From Proteocatella sphenisci DSM 23131 (GTDB taxonomy: Bacteria; Bacillota; Clostridia; Peptostreptococcales; Filifactoraceae): DNA of 60,177 nucleotides. Below, piece after piece: positions 8,993 to 60,177 of the stretch. The notes beneath the pieces are model-generated. The model was not told where the DNA came from, did not search any database, and saw only the letters and a program-made list of their open reading frames with translations. Each line of letters starts with the position of its first letter. Position 1 is the stretch's first letter. The stretch spans positions 1 to 60,177 of the forward strand of contig NZ_AUID01000018.1 in assembly GCF_000423525.1 (NCBI RefSeq), written 5' to 3'. Made by a program: the position numbers and the translations under genes.

Positions 8993-9811
8993 TTACTGAA
9001 ATATTATATGAGCACTATGCTCACAGAGATATTCCCCTATATTTACATCTCTTTTTGAATATATCCCATGATAGTCACTGCCACCTGTAAGAATAAGCCC
9101 ATATTTTAAAGCTTTTTCTGTTATTTGCTTTTTGTATTCTTCGCTGTTGGATACATGATTAAGTTCAAGACCATCAAGTCCTTCTTTTACCAGCTCATCC
9201 ACTATATAAAGATTATCCTGCTGACCAGGGTGAGCTATGACGCTATAGCCTCCTGAATCTTTTACTGCTCTTAGAGCCTTTCTTATATCGATGTATTCCA
9301 TATTATGTTGACACTTTCCTCCATTTTTGAAAAGAGTTTCGTTTATATGAGGAAACATAGCTTCCGTCTGGCCAGTTTTGTACAATACATCAAATATGTG
9401 CTGCTTGAATATATATCCTCTTGAGAATTCATAAAGCTGCTCATAGCTTATATCATAACCTAAGGCTCCCAGCTCTTTTATCTGTCTCCTGGCTTTTTCG
9501 TTTCTCTGCTCTATCATTGGGCCACAAAGCCTGTTTATAATATCATCTTCTTTTATATTGTATCCAAGAAGATGTATCTTTTTTCCAGTATTAGGGTCTA
9601 TTGCTGATATCTCAATAGATTTAACTGTTTTTATACCTGATAATGTGGTTTTAGTGTGAATTTCATCGTAACCCCTAAAGGTATCGTGGTCTGTGACAGC
9701 TATGTGTGACAGCTCTTTTTGCTCTGCCATGGATATAATAGTGTCTATGTCATCGTACCCATCAGAATTTCTTGTGTGAATATGGCTGTCTGATTTAAAT
9801 ATTTTCTTCAC
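8993..9811 (-). CDS. PHP-domain phosphoesterase
   Basis: A polymerase-and-histidinol-phosphatase family metal hydrolase of 272 residues. Metal-binding motifs are visible in order: DSHIHTRNSDG at the N-terminus, VTDHDTF near 40, a central His in SVIAHPGQ, and GGSDYHG near the C-terminus. The closest characterised group hydrolyses 3',5'-nucleoside bisphosphates or 5'-phosphates of short oligonucleotides; the exact substrate is inferred only from family. It begins with GTG at 9811, inside the last 17 nt of tadA, so translation of the two is probably coupled. Confidence 0.85.
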   Translation of the reverse strand: MKKIFKSDSHIHTRNSDGYDDIDTIISMAEQKELSHIAVTDHDTFRGYDEIHTKTTLSGIKTVKSIEISAIDPNTGKKIHLLGYNIKEDDIINRLCGPMIEQRNEKARRQIKELGALGYDISYEQLYEFSRGYIFKQHIFDVLYKTGQTEAMFPHINETLFKNGGKCQHNMEYIDIRKALRAVKDSGGYSVIAHPGQQDNLYIVDELVKEGLDGLELNHVSNSEEYKKQITEKALKYGLILTGGSDYHGIYSKRDVNIGEYLCEHSAHIIFQ

Positions 9812-10268
9812 TTTTTTTCTTATCCTTTTTTATCCTCAGATTTTTGAAAAATCTGCTTAGTATATATGAACAGGCTTTGCTTTCTTCTATTATAAGCATA
9901 TTATCGCCTGGAATCAGTTCTTCTGATATTATTGGTACCTTACTTATGGCTCCTCCTCTTACCGGATCAAGTGCACCTATGTGGATATTTTTTATCCTGG
10001 CATGGAGTATTGCGCCTGTGCACATTATGCATGGTTCAAGAGTTATATAAATATTACTGCCTGTAAGTCTCCAGCTTCCTATATTTTTGCAAGCTTCTTC
10101 AATAGCTATTATTTCTGCATGCCCTGTTGCCAATTTAGACTTTTCCACAAGGTTATGGCCTCGCCCTATTATTTCACCGTCTTTTTCAATTATGCATCCA
10201 ACCGGTACTTCTCCCTGTTTATAAGCCTTTAGCGCCTCTGAAAAAGCGGCTCTCATATATTTATTCAT
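9795..10268 (-). CDS. tadA: tRNA-specific adenosine deaminase
   Basis: Converts A34 to inosine in tRNA-Arg(ACG). The cytidine-deaminase-fold zinc motifs are complete: HAE (His50-Ala-Glu52) and PCIMC (Cys80, Cys83), counted from the ATG at 10268. That ATG follows AAGGA; a GTG five codons upstream (10283) is an alternative. The Lys-rich tail after about residue 140 (IKKDKKKSEENI) is longer than usual and overlaps the start of the next gene. Upstream, between this gene and prfB, lies a cluster of three perfect DnaA boxes. Confidence 0.93.
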   Translation of the reverse strand: MNKYMRAAFSEALKAYKQGEVPVGCIIEKDGEIIGRGHNLVEKSKLATGHAEIIAIEEACKNIGSWRLTGSNIYITLEPCIMCTGAILHARIKNIHIGALDPVRGGAISKVPIISEELIPGDNMLIIEESKACSYILSRFFKNLRIKKDKKKSEENI

Positions 10269-10304
10269 AATTTCCTTTTTCACTTTTGTGTATAAAATTC
10301 CGAC

Positions 10305-10347
10305 TTATCCACATTATCCACAGATTGTTTTCTCAAACTGTGGATAA
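10305..10347. promoter_or_regulatory. Cluster of three perfect DnaA boxes outside oriC
   Basis: TTATCCACA at 10305-10313 is directly abutted by TTATCCACA at 10314-10322, and an inverted copy (TGTGGATAA) lies at 10339-10347. The second and third boxes also form a 12-bp inverted repeat (CATTATCCACAG / CTGTGGATAATG). There is no T-run after it, so it is not an obvious terminator. It is about 20 kb from dnaA, between prfB and tadA, and resembles a DnaA-titration or DnaA-regulated site. Confidence 0.8.
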
Positions 10348-10358
10348 TGTGACACTTG

Positions 10359-11457
10359 TTACATTTTTTGATTTCTTAGATATGCAAGTATAAATGGCAT
10401 TATGTTTCCATCCATTACGCTATTTACATTTCCTGATTCTTCTGCGGTCCTATGATCTTTTACAAGGGTATAGGGCTGAAAAACATAGGATCTTATCTGG
10501 CTTCCCCATCCTATCTGCGAATACTCTCCCTGAAGATCTTCTATCTTGTCTTTATGTTCTTGTTTCTTTAGATCTATTAATTTAGCCATCAGCATCTTCA
10601 TGCATACATCTTTGTTTATTAGCTGGGACCTTTCATTTTGACACTGCACTACTATTCCTGTGGGCTGGTGGGTTATTCTTACAGCTGAGTCTGTCTTATT
10701 AACATGTTGACCCCCAGCACCTCCTGATCTGTATGTGTCTATCTTAAGGTCTGAGGTATTTATATCTATATTTACGGTATCATCAAGCTCAGGTATTACA
10801 TCTACGGATGCAAATGAAGTGTGTCTTTTCCCTGAAGAGTCAAACTGTGACATCCTCACCAGGCGGTGAACACCTTTTTCTGATTTTAAAAATCCATATG
10901 CATTTTTTCCTGATATCCTAAGGGTAACTGATTTTATGCCAGCTTCTGGGTCTTGATTGTAATCAAGCTCTTTTACCTTGAATTTCATTTCCTGTGCAAA
11001 TCTGGTATACATCCTAAGGAGCATCTTTGCCCAGTCTTGTGCATCAAGTCCCCCACTTCCGGCATGTATGGAAAGTATCGCGTTGCTATTGTCATGTTCC
11101 TGATCGAGCATGGTTTCAAGCTTGAGCTCTTCTATTTTTTCATGTATGGTTTGAAGTTCTTTTTCCAGTTCTTTTTCCATTGACTCGTCTTCTTGAGCCA
11201 TCTCAAAGAGAACCTCAAGGTCGAGAACACCTGTTTGTGCGTCCTCGTAGTCCTCAAGTACTTCTTCTATCTCTTTATTTCTTTTGACTTGTTTCTGGCT
11301 GCCCTCAAGGTCTTCCCAAAAACTCTGATACTGCATCTGATTATCAATTATATCTTTTTCTTTCAAAAGTCTTTCTATGTCAAAGTGACACCTTTATTTC
11401 GCTGAGGGATTCTTGTATTTTTTCCATCTTAATCTTATGTTCTGCATAATTTAGCAT
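10359..11457 (-). CDS. prfB: Peptide chain release factor 2, with programmed +1 frameshift
   Basis: Terminates translation at UGA and UAA. The main frame (10359-11379) holds the RF2 domains with GGQ motif RSGGAGGQHVNK and the SQFDSSGKRHTSF block. The first 25 codons are in another frame, from ATG 11457 (MLNYAEHKIKMEKIQ...), where GGAAAGGA at the end of secA gives the ribosome site. They end at CTT TGA C (11385-11379), the classic RF2 slip site, preceded by the SD-like AAAGGTG. After the +1 shift the protein continues SL-DIERLLKEKD. The gene is intact; the in-frame stop is regulatory. It lies 6 nt after secA, hence a secA-prfB operon. Confidence 0.95.
11379..11395 (-). promoter_or_regulatory. 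RF2 programmed frameshift signal
   Basis: On the minus strand AAAGGTG precedes TCA CTT TGA C. The ribosome slips from CTT to TTG... +1 when RF2 is scarce, skipping the T of TGA at 11382. The internal Shine-Dalgarno-like AAGGTG is weaker than the usual AGGGGG. Confidence 0.9.
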
Positions 11458-11463
11458 ATTTTA

Positions 11464-14160
11464 CTAATCCTTTCCACAGCATTTTTTGTATTTTTTCCCA
11501 CTTCCACAAGGACACTCTTCATTTCTTCCAACTACCTTGTCTGTTTTTTTAGGTGTTGAGCTTTTTTCTTCAAGAGAATTTTCAAAACCTTCTTTTATTT
11601 TGTCCAGATCTACTACTGCTTTTCTTTGGATCTGTACTTGTTGTTTTTCTTCTTCTTTTTGAATCTGGAAACTCATAAGGTATTTTACAGTTTCTTCTTT
11701 TATGCTTTCCGTCATAGCGTCAAACATATCAAAACCTTCTATCTGGTAGGCTCTTACAGGGTCTTCTTGTCCTATTGCTCTAAGACCCATTCCCTGTCTT
11801 AACTGATCCATAGAATCTATGTGGTCCATCCATTTTGAATCTACTACCTGAAGCAGTATTACTCTTTCAAGCTCTCTAAATTCTTCTTCTGGAAGCATGG
11901 ATTCTTTCATTTCATAGATTTTACGAGCCATGTCTTTTATAAGCGTTTTCATTCTTGGGTTGTCTATATTTGATATTTCTTCTTCTATATTTATGTCTGC
12001 TGCAAACTGCTGATTGATTTTTTCTTTAAGTCCTTTAATATCCCACTCTTCCTGATAGGTTTTTTCAGAACAGAATTTGTCTACAATGTCATCTGCAAGC
12101 GCATCTATCATCTCTAATATTTCAGGTTTTATATTCTCGCCTTCAAGTACACGTTTTCTTTCTGCATAGATTATTTCTCTTTGCTTGTTCATTACGTCGT
12201 CATACTGAAGTACACTCTTTCTGATAGAGAAGTTCTTTCCTTCGACTTTCTTTTGAGCACTTTCTATGGATTTTGAAAGCATCTTGTGCTCTATTGCATC
12301 TTCTTCTTCCATTCCAAGTTTTTCTACAACTCCTTGTATTCTCTCGCTTCCAAATAGCCTCATAAGTTCGTCTTCAAGGGATATAAAGAATCTTGTAGTT
12401 CCTGGGTCTCCTTGTCGTCCGGCACGACCTCTCAGCTGGTTGTCTATACGTCTTGACTCATGTCTTTCTGTACCTAATATAAAGAGTCCTCCTGCAGATA
12501 TTACTTTTACCTGTTCTTCTTTGAGCTCAAGTTTCTTTTGAGCAAGTATTTCCTGATAGACTTTTCTTGCTTCTTTTATTTCTTCGTCATCAGTTGCACT
12601 GAATCCACTCGCCTCAGCTATAAGATGTTCTTCGTATTCACGTTTTTTCATTTCTTTAACAGTAAGAATTTCAGGATTACCTCCAAGGATTATATCGGTT
12701 CCTCTTCCTGCCATGTTTGTAGCTATTGTAACTGCCTCGTATCTACCTGCCTGAGCTACTATATCCGCTTCTTTTTCATGGTTTTTTGCATTCAGTACCT
12801 CATGCTTTACGCCTTTTCTTTTAAGCATCTCTGAAAGCATTTCTGAAGTTTCTATGGAGATAGTTCCTATAAGAATAGGCTGTCCTGTCTTGTGTACTTC
12901 TGCTACATGCTCGACTACTGCCCTGAATTTAGATTCTACATTCTTGTATACCGCATCATCCATATCGTTTCTCTGTGTCGGCTTGTTTGTTGGAATCTGA
13001 ACTACATCCATCTTATATATTGATCTGAATTCATCTTCTTCGGTTTTTGCTGTTCCTGTCATACCTGAAAGTTTTTTGTACATTCTGAAGTAATTCTGGA
13101 AAGTTATAGTTGCAAGTGTCTTTGATTCTCTTTGTATCTTAAGGCCTTCTTTTGCCTCTATAGCCTGGTGAAGTCCCTCAGAGTATCTTCTTCCAAACAT
13201 AAGCCTGCCTGTAAATTCGTCAACTATAACAATTTCTCCATCTTTTATAACATAATCCACATCAAGTCTCATCAGTGTGTTTGCTCTAAGGGCCTGTCCT
13301 ATATGATGATATACCTCTATGTTAGCTATGTCTGTCATACTATCCACTCCAAAGAATTTTTCAGCTTTTTCGAGGCCTTCATCTGTAAGTGAAGATGCGT
13401 TGTCTTTTTCATTCACTATATAGTCTTCTTCTAATTTAAGCAGCTGTATAAAGCTGTTAGCAGTTGTGTAAAGTGATGTTGACTTGTCTCCGGCACCAGA
13501 TATTATAAGTGGAGTTCTCGCCTCATCTACAAGTATAGAGTCGACCTCATCTACTATGGCATAGTTAAGTGGTCTTTGGACTCTCTGGTTTTCGAATATT
13601 ACCATGTTGTCTCTCAGATAGTCAAAACCATATTCATTGTTTGTTCCATATGTTATGTCAGCCCTGTATGCCGCTCTTCTTTGTTCATTAGTAATACCGT
13701 GAACTATTACTCCTGTTGTAAGTCCCATAAAGTTGTAGAGCTTACCCATCCATTCACAGTCTCTCTTTGCAAGATAATCGTTGACTGTAACTACGTGTAC
13801 ACCTTTTCCTTCAAGGGCATTGAGGTATACAGCAAGAGTTGCCACAAGAGTCTTTCCTTCTCCTGTTCTCATCTCAGCTATCCTTCCGCTGTTGAGTACC
13901 ATACCTCCCATGAGCTGTACGTCATAATGTCTCATTCCAAGCGATCTCTTTGCACCTTCTCTGCACGCAGCAAAAGCTTCTTCAAGTATATCGTCTACTG
14001 TTTCCCCATTTTGAAGTCTATTTTTAAATTCAGGAGTCATTGCCTTTAGCTCGCTGTCTGTCATGGCTTCAAATCTGCTCTCTAAAGCATTTATTTTTTG
14101 AGCACAAGCTTCAAGTTTTTTAATTTCTCTCTTTGATAGTATATTGTCTAATAATCCCAA
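11464..14160 (-). CDS. secA: Protein translocase ATPase SecA
   Basis: Motor of the Sec export pathway at the cytoplasmic membrane. The 898-residue protein has Walker [14 protein letters not shown]-like [16 protein letters not shown], the motif [10 protein letters not shown] and [11 protein letters not shown] of the second helicase lobe, the scaffold and wing domains, and the C-terminal zinc-binding SEC-C motif [13 protein letters not shown]. Translation starts at a TTG (14160) preceded by AAAGAGGT. It is the first gene of the run secA-prfB-tadA. The upstream 200 nt hold a parS site and the divergent YjiH promoter. Confidence 0.98.
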
Positions 14161-29599: not shown

Positions 29600-29792
29600 A
29601 TTTTTCTCCCTCAAATATAAATATAATAATGTAAATATTATTAACAGTAGTAGTAGTAGGGCCTGTGAATTTGTGGATAAGTGCTTGACTTAATTCTGGA
29701 GGAACATCTACAGCTATTAATAAGTCTGTGGATAAAAAACGCTTTTTTCAGGCTGTTTTGTGGATAAAAAAACGATAAAAAGACCTGTTTTT
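29600..29792. promoter_or_regulatory. dnaA-dnaN intergenic origin element (DnaA boxes, GC patch, DnaA-trio)
   Basis: Three perfect DnaA boxes, all TGTGGATAA on the plus strand: 29672-29680, 29727-29735, 29759-29767; a weak box TGTGAATTT at 29664-29672. Immediately left are GGGCCTG and then four TAG triplets (29648-29659), preceded by CAG and TAA; beyond them is an AT-rich stretch (29605-29645). Box, GC-rich patch, TAG-trio and AT-rich DNA in this order and strand match the basal unwinding system described for Bacillus oriC, so strand opening probably begins here. Confidence 0.8.
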
Positions 29793-31112
29793 TTAGTTAT
29801 TTTTTATATCGTTAATTATATTTTCTATTTTATCTTTCAAGTCTTTGTTCTTTTTTAGATCAGTGCTTATTTTATCATGTGCATGCATGACAGTTGTGTG
29901 GTCTTTGCCTCCAAAGCTTTCTCCAATTTTTGGAAGTGACAGGTCCGTAAGTTCACGACTCAGATACATTGCAACTTGTCTTGGAAATGCAATCTCTCTT
30001 GTTCTCTTTTTAAGATTAAAGTCAGAAATCTTTATGCTGTAGTACTGAGAGACTTTTTCTTTTATAAGGTCGACGTTAATTTCTTTGTTTACCTTACCGC
30101 TTATGAGATCCTTAAGCGCCTCACATGCCAGTTCATATGTGATCTCTTTATTGGTAAGATCAGCATATGCGAAAATTCTTATAAGAGCTCCCTCGAGTTC
30201 TCTTATGTTGGATTTTATATTTTTTGCTATATGAATAGTGACTTCATCAGGAACGTGTTTGTTTTCTTCCTGAGCCTTCTTTCTAAGTATGGCAATCCTG
30301 GTCTCATAGTCGGGTGATTGTATATCAGCAATAAGACCCATTTCAAATCTTGATCTTAATCTGTCTTCAAGTGTAGGTATTTCTTTTGGAGGCCTGTCAC
30401 TTGATATGATTATTTGTTTATTTGCATTGTGAAGAGCATTAAAAGTATGGAAAAATTCTTCCTGTGTACTTTCTTTTCCTGCTATAAATTGAATATCGTC
30501 TACAAGAAGGACGTCGACATTTCGGTATTTATTTCTGAAAGCCTCATTCTTGTCATCTTTTATTGAGTTTATAAGTTCATTTGTAAAATTTTCTGATGAA
30601 AGGTAGAGTACTTTTGCGTTTGAGTTCTGATTGAGTATATAGTGACCTATAGCGTGCATAAGGTGAGTTTTACCAAGTCCAACACCACCATATATAAATA
30701 ATGGATTGTATGCTTTTGCAGGAGACTCTGCAACAGCGACGCATGCAGCATGTGCAAATCGGTTACTGTTACCTATTACAAAACTGTCAAAGGTATTTTT
30801 AGGGTTGAGGTTGCTGCTTATAATTTTTTCTTTCTGGACCTCATTCTTGTTTGTTACGGGTATTTCTTCCAGAGAAGTTATAACGGTTATATTTATCGAT
30901 TTTCCTGCTATATCCTGGGCAAGAGATTCCAGTTTCTGTCTGTGATTGTTATCTATGACTTCCTTTATAAAAGGAAGTTTGGTAAATAAAATCAGTTCAG
31001 TTTCCCTCAGTGTAACGGGTTCGAGCTTGCTGAAAAAGGAATCAAAGAAAGTTTCTGACACTGTTGCCTTGAGCCTTTCTATTATTTTCTCCCATAGTGC
31101 ATAAGCATCCAT
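29793..31112 (-). CDS. dnaA: Chromosomal replication initiator DnaA
   Basis: 439 residues with the four usual domains: I (about 1-90), a short linker II, the AAA+ domain III (Walker [18 protein letters not shown], Walker [13 protein letters not shown], sensor region [18 protein letters not shown]) and domain IV with signature [15 protein letters not shown] for DnaA-box recognition. GGAGG precedes the ATG. It is first in the replication operon; its promoter at 31176-31204 is followed by two DnaA boxes, giving autoregulation. Confidence 0.98.
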
Positions 31113-31585
31113 TATTAACCTCCATATATAATATTAACAACTTATCAACAAAAAATGTGGATAAGTTATAGAGTAATTATAGCAAATAATTCATGTTAAG
31201 TAAAACAGAATAAATAAAATAAATTAAGAATATTCCTGTGGACTAATAATAAACTAATTTTTTTTAAAATTTTATAAACAGGCTGTTGATAAAATTTATA
31301 GATAAAAAATAATATTTTAAGTGTTGATTTTTAAGAAAAAAGTTATATTTTACACAGAATTTATAATTATCAAATTACTTATCCACAAAGTTATTAACAG
31401 GTGTGGATAAGTGTATAAAAAGATATTAACATACAGGGGAAAAAACTGTGAAAAAAGTCATAAAAATTTATAATAGAATTTCTTAAGAGTTTATCAACAG
31501 GTTGTTATTAACTAATACACAGCAAAAAATGCATATATATATTGTTTTTAAAACAAAAAATCAATCCTCTGGAATCAAGAAAAGC
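31113..31585. promoter_or_regulatory. oriC: DnaA-box region upstream of dnaA
   Basis: Non-coding and very AT-rich. Perfect DnaA boxes: 31156-31164 (minus), 31379-31387 (plus), 31402-31410 (minus). One-mismatch boxes: TTATCAACA 31142-31150 and 31491-31499, TTATTAACA 31391-31399, TGTTGATAA 31284-31292. Gene orientation switches across this segment. Together with the dnaA-dnaN element it forms a bipartite origin. Confidence 0.92.
31176..31204 (-). promoter_or_regulatory. dnaA promoter
   Basis: On the minus strand TTTACT (31204-31199), 17-nt spacer, TATAAT (31181-31176). The DnaA boxes at 31156-31164 and 31142-31150 lie just after the expected start site, so DnaA can repress its own gene. Confidence 0.75.
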
Positions 31586-57577: not shown

Positions 57578-57950
57578 AAAAAAACCGCCCAACGTACATA
57601 CTTCCCCCTTTATAAGGAGCAAATAGAACATTTGCGGTGCCATCCTTGTTAATACTTTACTGCCAATCTAATCCAGAAAACTCTGTCAGAGACTTGTGTA
57701 TCAAAAAACCCCAATTCAAAGAATCGGGGTATGCAAGTCGAATAGATATGTAAAGCATTATCTTATTTCAGGTACAGACATACCCTACCTCTATAACGTG
57801 AGGACCACGTCTTCAGCTAATAATCACAACAGACTTTCGCCGAGAATCTCATAGACCCATTCGCTTAAACTACACTGCCAGGTTTCACCAACCCCCGGCT
57901 CTCTGAAAGCTTTATTTAAGTTACTTACTTCTAATCAAAGACTTTATATT
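57578..57950 (-). promoter_or_regulatory. T-box leader (tryptophan specifier)
   Basis: On the minus strand, in order: distal Stem I AGAGAGCCGGGGGTTGGTGA, specifier-loop candidate GCGAATGGGTC (UGG at 57859-57857, followed by a purine), Stem II-like CACGTTATAGAGG, a hairpin CCCCGATTC..GAATTGGGG with U-run (57729-57703), T-box core AAGGATGGCACCGC (57648-57634), and the terminator ending GGGCGGTTTTTTT (57590-57578). Uncharged tRNA-Trp would allow readthrough into trpP. Confidence 0.93.

Positions 57951-60006: not shown

Positions 60007-60177
<171 letters not shown>

Follow-up and report, generated by a model that had tools for sequence, protein, structure and literature searches.

A compact cluster of DnaA boxes between prfB and a tadA-like gene, 20.8 kb from dnaA, in Proteocatella sphenisci

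In bacteria like B. subtilis, the control that limits initiation to once per cycle is still partly open. B. subtilis is described as having neither Hda nor SeqA, datA or DARS (PMC13220808). It carries six DnaA-box clusters outside oriC, and cells without them are reported to initiate early (PMC5295017; PMC13220808). A strong role of such clusters has been doubted (PMC5295017), and a roughly 10-fold excess of DnaA gave no over-initiation (PMC13220808). The eight strongest DnaA regions hold 4-12 sites each (PMC4447404, Table 1). The genes next to strong regions (ywcI/vpr, gcp/ydiF, trmE, ywlC, sda, yydA) have no theme in common, and several B. subtilis genes are apparently repressed directly by DnaA (PMC4447404). 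E. coli is equipped differently. Its datA is about 1 kb long, has five boxes and needs IHF (PMC5295017), whilst in the cores of DARS1 and DARS2 box I opposes boxes II and III (PMC5742627; PMC8682772). For E. coli DnaA the preferred target is a pair of boxes separated by 2-3 bp, and altered spacing disrupts binding (PMC11317965).

We analysed a stretch of 60,177 nucleotides from P. sphenisci DSM 23131, referred to below as the window. Between prfB and a tadA-like gene, positions 10305-10347 hold three exact TTATCCACA boxes: box A (10339-10347, minus strand), box B (10314-10322, plus strand) and box C (10305-10313, plus strand). Boxes B and C abut, B being the inner member, and box A faces the pair across 16 bp, exactly as the first-pass annotation had described. 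A fourth box, not part of that annotation, lies 9 bp from box C: box D (10287-10295, minus strand) reads TTATACACA and fits the looser motif TTATNCACA. Read in the tadA direction, the order is thus A forward, 16 bp, B reverse, 0 bp, C reverse, 9 bp, D forward, and the three exact boxes and one TTATNCACA box together span 61 bp (10287-10347). Our preferred reading, to which we give a probability of roughly 0.6, is that 10287-10347 is a real four-box DnaA-box cluster near oriC, which would act as a DnaA sink delaying re-initiation and perhaps also as a roadblock for tadA.

In having several consensus boxes within a short stretch outside oriC, more than chance would place there, the site resembles the B. 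subtilis clusters. The differences from these lie in its gene neighbourhood, its layout of an abutting pair facing a third box, and its number of boxes, this predicted site having four that fit the consensus. It is also like the E. coli DARS core in being intergenic and in opposing a single box (A) to two tandem ones (B and C). On this ground the site could be a DARS-like element, in which facing boxes set DnaA head to head and alter its nucleotide state, moving active DnaA up or down; the facing-box offset of 25 bp, against 14 in DARS, is about one helical turn more. Both DARS cores of E. coli MG1655 (L165, L166) have box offsets of 14 and 12 bp, however, whereas ours are 25 and 9 bp, corresponding to gaps of 16 and 0 bp against 5 and 3 bp. 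The DARS cores also come from a proteobacterium, which the present host is not, and B. subtilis is among the bacteria described as lacking both datA and DARS. Because the spacing differs, we did not file the site as a DARS, and we consider a DARS-like action very unlikely.

Two same-direction boxes side by side also recall the E. coli double DnaA box, but B and C are 0 bp apart and not 2-3 bp. With datA the site would share a proposed lowering of active or free DnaA; datA spreads five boxes over about 1 kb, against four boxes in 61 bp here. Since neither the DARS spacing nor the double-box spacing fits, we group the site with the B. subtilis DnaA-box clusters, with an unusually compact layout. 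The first-pass annotation had compared it with both the B. subtilis clusters and datA/DARS. Exact boxes, conservation in the genus, proximity to oriC and a recurring layout make the former comparison the best supported, whilst the latter held for topology only.

Nine exact TTATCCACA boxes occur in the window, where shuffles predict 0.77. In line with the earlier statement that the remaining perfect boxes sit in the origin regions, the other six all lie at 29672-31410, on both sides of dnaA (29793-31112; TIGR00362, E 5.1e-171) and before dnaN. The cluster is 20.8 kb from the dnaA start, close to the 20 kb given before, and the nearest exact box of oriC is 19.3 kb away. It had been judged as dense as the box groups of oriC; its exact boxes are in fact spaced closer than those. 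The genome that holds the window (G000; 2.41 Mb in 45 contigs, exact-box list complete) has 50 exact boxes, compared with 16 for a reversed-motif control. A genome scan of the kind the first-pass annotation had proposed found the window cluster to be the only exact triple within 43 bp outside oriC, and in G000 no place other than the cluster and oriC has exact facing boxes at a distance of 8-35 bp. When 44 boxes were placed at random, three starts fell within 34 bp in 3 of 200,000 trials, and an abutting same-strand pair arose in a fraction of 4.7e-4. With the looser TTATNCACA, at least one further triple was found among the matches listed, which reach contig 17 (G000:C3:155057-155088; L167 3058-3089). 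It contains no TTATCCACA and is probably due to chance, as it sits inside a 301-aa open frame.

Conservation was assessed within the genus against the one other species in the search (G001, locus L044). There prfB, the four boxes and tadA stand in identical order with equal box spacing, boxes A, B and C lying at 113-121, 138-146 and 147-155 of L044 and box D at 165. All 36 box bases are identical to those of the window; elsewhere in the intergenic stretch identity is 36 of 56 columns, with gaps scored as non-identical (Fisher 1.2e-5). The genes tadA, PHP and the 196-aa gene agree at 78 of 154 fourfold sites, taking codons whose first two bases match. Since the box bases are kept in full whilst silent sites have largely changed, the boxes look to be under selection in the genus, as judged from this single two-species comparison.

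Beyond the genus, the place is not kept. All three genomes of genus g2 (G002, G006, G009) retain the order secA-prfB-tadA-PHP, with prfB and tadA overlapping by one base or standing one base apart, and none of the three has boxes between the two genes. The prfB-tadA place of the cluster is thus genus-specific. The nine genomes from other genera of the family lack exact boxes within 1.5 kb of prfB, with boxes one base off scattered there; the exact-box lists behind this are complete for G000 and nine other genomes of the family and hold 26 of 29 boxes for G006. The comparison in relatives suggested by the first-pass annotation therefore gave a divided answer, with retention in one species of the genus and absence from the place in other genera. 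Retention in relatives was an expectation of our own and stands outside the published definition of a B. subtilis-type cluster.

As the block is missing in g2, it must have been gained or lost, which would suit a chance cluster or the remnant of an invading repeat, and the chance-like TTATNCACA triple described above points the same way. Such an origin is nonetheless extremely unlikely given the rarity of the arrangement in random placements, the retention of the boxes in G001 and the lack of a second exact facing pair outside oriC in G000. A phage or plasmid origin was likewise dropped, the best matches covering about 20-34 bases at E 0.2-0.8.

We also checked whether the layout recurs elsewhere. 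Of the 393 genomes of the order, four (G000, G001, G007 and G198) have the exact three-box pattern, defined as an abutting pair, a gap of 8-30 bp and a facing box, and none has its reversed control. G198 belongs to another family and carries the layout immediately past the end of gyrA; the gap is again 16 bp and the spacer unrelated. In G005, G008 and G007, which represent two other genera, two abutting pairs face each other across 17 bp, and the site overlaps an acetyltransferase gene, homologous among the three, at its 3' end. Of the four boxes, two in G005, three in G008 and one in G007 differ from TTATCCACA by one base. The distance to dnaA is 22.5 kb in G005, 20.2 kb in G008 and 298 kb in G007. 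An Acetoanaerobium noterae record has the G005 form between a dnaB-acetyltransferase stretch and purA (genes named by profile search and tblastn), 22.5 kb before the record start, where the dnaA match begins; its acetyltransferase is 99% identical to that of G005.

Acetyltransferase homology was taken from best tblastn hits. G003 has boxes at the end of the acetyltransferase gene with a different spacing. No exact box lies within 450 bp of the best homologue in G000, G001, G004 or G010; in G004 a single one-off box falls in this range, and in the g2 genomes the homologues are weak. At loci L141, L142, L144 and L139, from two genera, a homologous GNAT acetyltransferase gene has DnaA boxes over its last codons, and gene and boxes stay together at differing distances from dnaA.

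A search of 391 genomes of the class for the abutting 18-mer alone gave 64 places in 58 genomes; its reversed control occurred in none of the 391. Besides the window we inspected 20 of these 64 loci, none of which has a dnaA or dnaN match within at most 1.5 kb on each side (L135 ends at a contig edge). At three of the 20 (L131, L132, L136) the 18-mer falls within a single long open frame. Neighbouring genes were looked up at nine of the 20 and include dnaB, spo0A, rho and tsaD, which corresponds to gcp of B. subtilis. The 3' side of gcp in B. subtilis carries a strong DnaA region (PMC4447404). A literature search with the terms tried matched no work on clostridial DnaA-box clusters, although such work may exist.

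One account of this recurrence is that Clostridia possess a compact DnaA element of their own, in which two abutting boxes face one or two others across 16-17 bp. It would have arisen or moved repeatedly, in many cases ending up some 20 kb from oriC, and would form a head-to-head DnaA complex that alters DnaA activity, as a functional counterpart of datA or DARS in bacteria not known to have either. We regard this account as doubtful. The recurrence also has a practical side: a small site of fixed layout, kept in the genus and repeated 20-22 kb from dnaA in some relatives, offers a minimal DNA for tests of DnaA binding, titration and nucleotide exchange, and the layout can be searched for in other Clostridia.

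The neighbours named in the first-pass annotation were upheld, at different levels of certainty. prfB (release factor 2; main frame 10359-11366, minus strand) matches TIGR00020 at 481.6 bits, above its cut-off. The tadA-like deaminase gene (9795-10283, minus strand) has PRK10860 as its best match but scores below the cut-off (115.9 against 150 bits). Its likeliest start is the ATG at 10268, which, with the bases preceding it, is kept in L044. Upstream of prfB stands secA, and past tadA follow a PHP-type gene, a 196-aa gene that had no family match in the profile search, and a ferredoxin-like gene. At 11330-11475 on the minus strand, prfB has the release-factor-2 frameshift site of other bacteria, CTTTGA (at 11385), ahead of its main frame.

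It had further been proposed that DnaA tunes transcription of prfB and tadA. For prfB this is unlikely because the boxes come after its stop codon, and it was dropped as a target; for tadA it is possible. Taken as the main function, transcription control would mean that DnaA bound between the two genes blocks or tunes tadA and the genes after it, in step with the DnaA level, and that any titration is incidental. The cluster is 11 bp from the prfB stop codon on one side and 18 bp from the tadA ATG on the other. The genes abut or overlap in g2, which suggests that prfB and tadA form one transcription unit, and the B. subtilis genes apparently repressed by DnaA provide a precedent. Against this, a scan of the tadA strand from 10284 to 10358 gave no sigma-70-type promoter-like site, so tuning of tadA would need a roadblock. 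In relatives the layout stands beside other genes (gyrA, acetyltransferase), and tadA is in our judgement an odd target for replication control. As the main function of the site, transcription control is on the whole unlikely.

Three of the four boxes take part in an inverted repeat (10310-10351). Its arms, 10310-10327 and 10334-10351, are 94% complementary, and the repeat takes in the whole of A and B together with the inner part of C. In the tadA sense it folds as a stable hairpin (-25.8 kcal/mol, z -5.64), and the G001 hairpin reaches -25.6 despite changes in the outer part of its left arm. The Acetoanaerobium and G007 sites also fold well, at -31.7 and -27.7. The site could thus be an RNA element, that is, a hairpin in the prfB-tadA transcript serving as a terminator, an attenuator or a processing or stability stem, with the likeness to DnaA boxes secondary. 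A precedent lies in the same genome. At G000:C8:75930-75956 (L168 2931-2957), two facing TTATGCACA boxes form a stem with a T run directly after it, and are more likely a terminator than a DnaA site. This shows that facing TTATNCACA boxes can belong to an ordinary terminator and calls for caution with the cluster.

Several results speak against such an element at the cluster itself. A stem is present there but no T run follows it, and the terminator scan gave no terminator-like site at the cluster, where Rfam had no family either. Full conservation extends to box D and the outer half of box C, neither of which is part of the stem. The restriction of exact facing boxes in G000 to the cluster and oriC also fits poorly with a hairpin as the primary feature, as does the G198 site, which folds differently and involves its outer box. 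An RNA element is accordingly improbable.

How, then, would a DnaA sink work at this place? Alignments of the G000 DnaA to PDB chains 1j1v, which holds a DnaA box, and 8btg, from B. subtilis, cover its DNA-binding domain, and on this basis binding of the consensus would be expected. DnaA would load on abutting boxes B and C and on facing box A to give a compact complex. Lying about 20 kb from the origin, the cluster would be copied very soon after initiation, and the DnaA-holding sites would then double at once and lower free DnaA, which would delay a second initiation. The same complex, inside the apparent prfB-tadA transcription unit, might slow reading into tadA as a side effect or a second use; a roadblock for tadA and a DnaA sink are mutually compatible. 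DnaA binding, titration and any effect on tadA are predictions made from sequence.

Beside the 4-12 sites of the B. subtilis regions, four boxes may make only a small sink. Also weighing against the DnaA sink are that conservation comes from one species pair, that the place is lost beyond the genus, that the G007 site is so far from dnaA, that a hairpin is kept in G001, and that titration is itself disputed for the B. subtilis clusters. The 0-bp spacing of B and C counts against DnaA binding as well, because E. coli DnaA is sensitive to the spacing of its paired boxes.

Most of the family genomes from other genera have close exact box pairs elsewhere than at oriC. In G000 and G001 a second box pair outside oriC, with a spacing of 39 bp in both, lies between recR and an L-serine dehydratase beta gene with similar flanks (L114 6413-6530, G000:C5:56436-56483; L109 2066-2200). 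A string of boxes (L113 4800-4829, L108 2542-2571, L111 5349-5369) has an offset of 21 in G000 and G001 and of 12 in G002, with a near-box between or before its boxes. It stands upstream of an adenosylcobalamin-dependent ribonucleotide reductase gene in G000 and G002 and of a HAD-family gene in G001. In genus g4, tadA lies apart from prfB and is flanked on both sides by DnaA boxes (L086, G004:C118, 119-1856 and 4315-4426), and the same locus has another box group after a second acetyltransferase gene. Elsewhere in the window, we found an FMN riboswitch at 851-966 and a T-box leader at 57612-57947, both on the minus strand, and at 60007-60177 on the plus strand the start of a 16S rRNA gene, ended by the contig edge.
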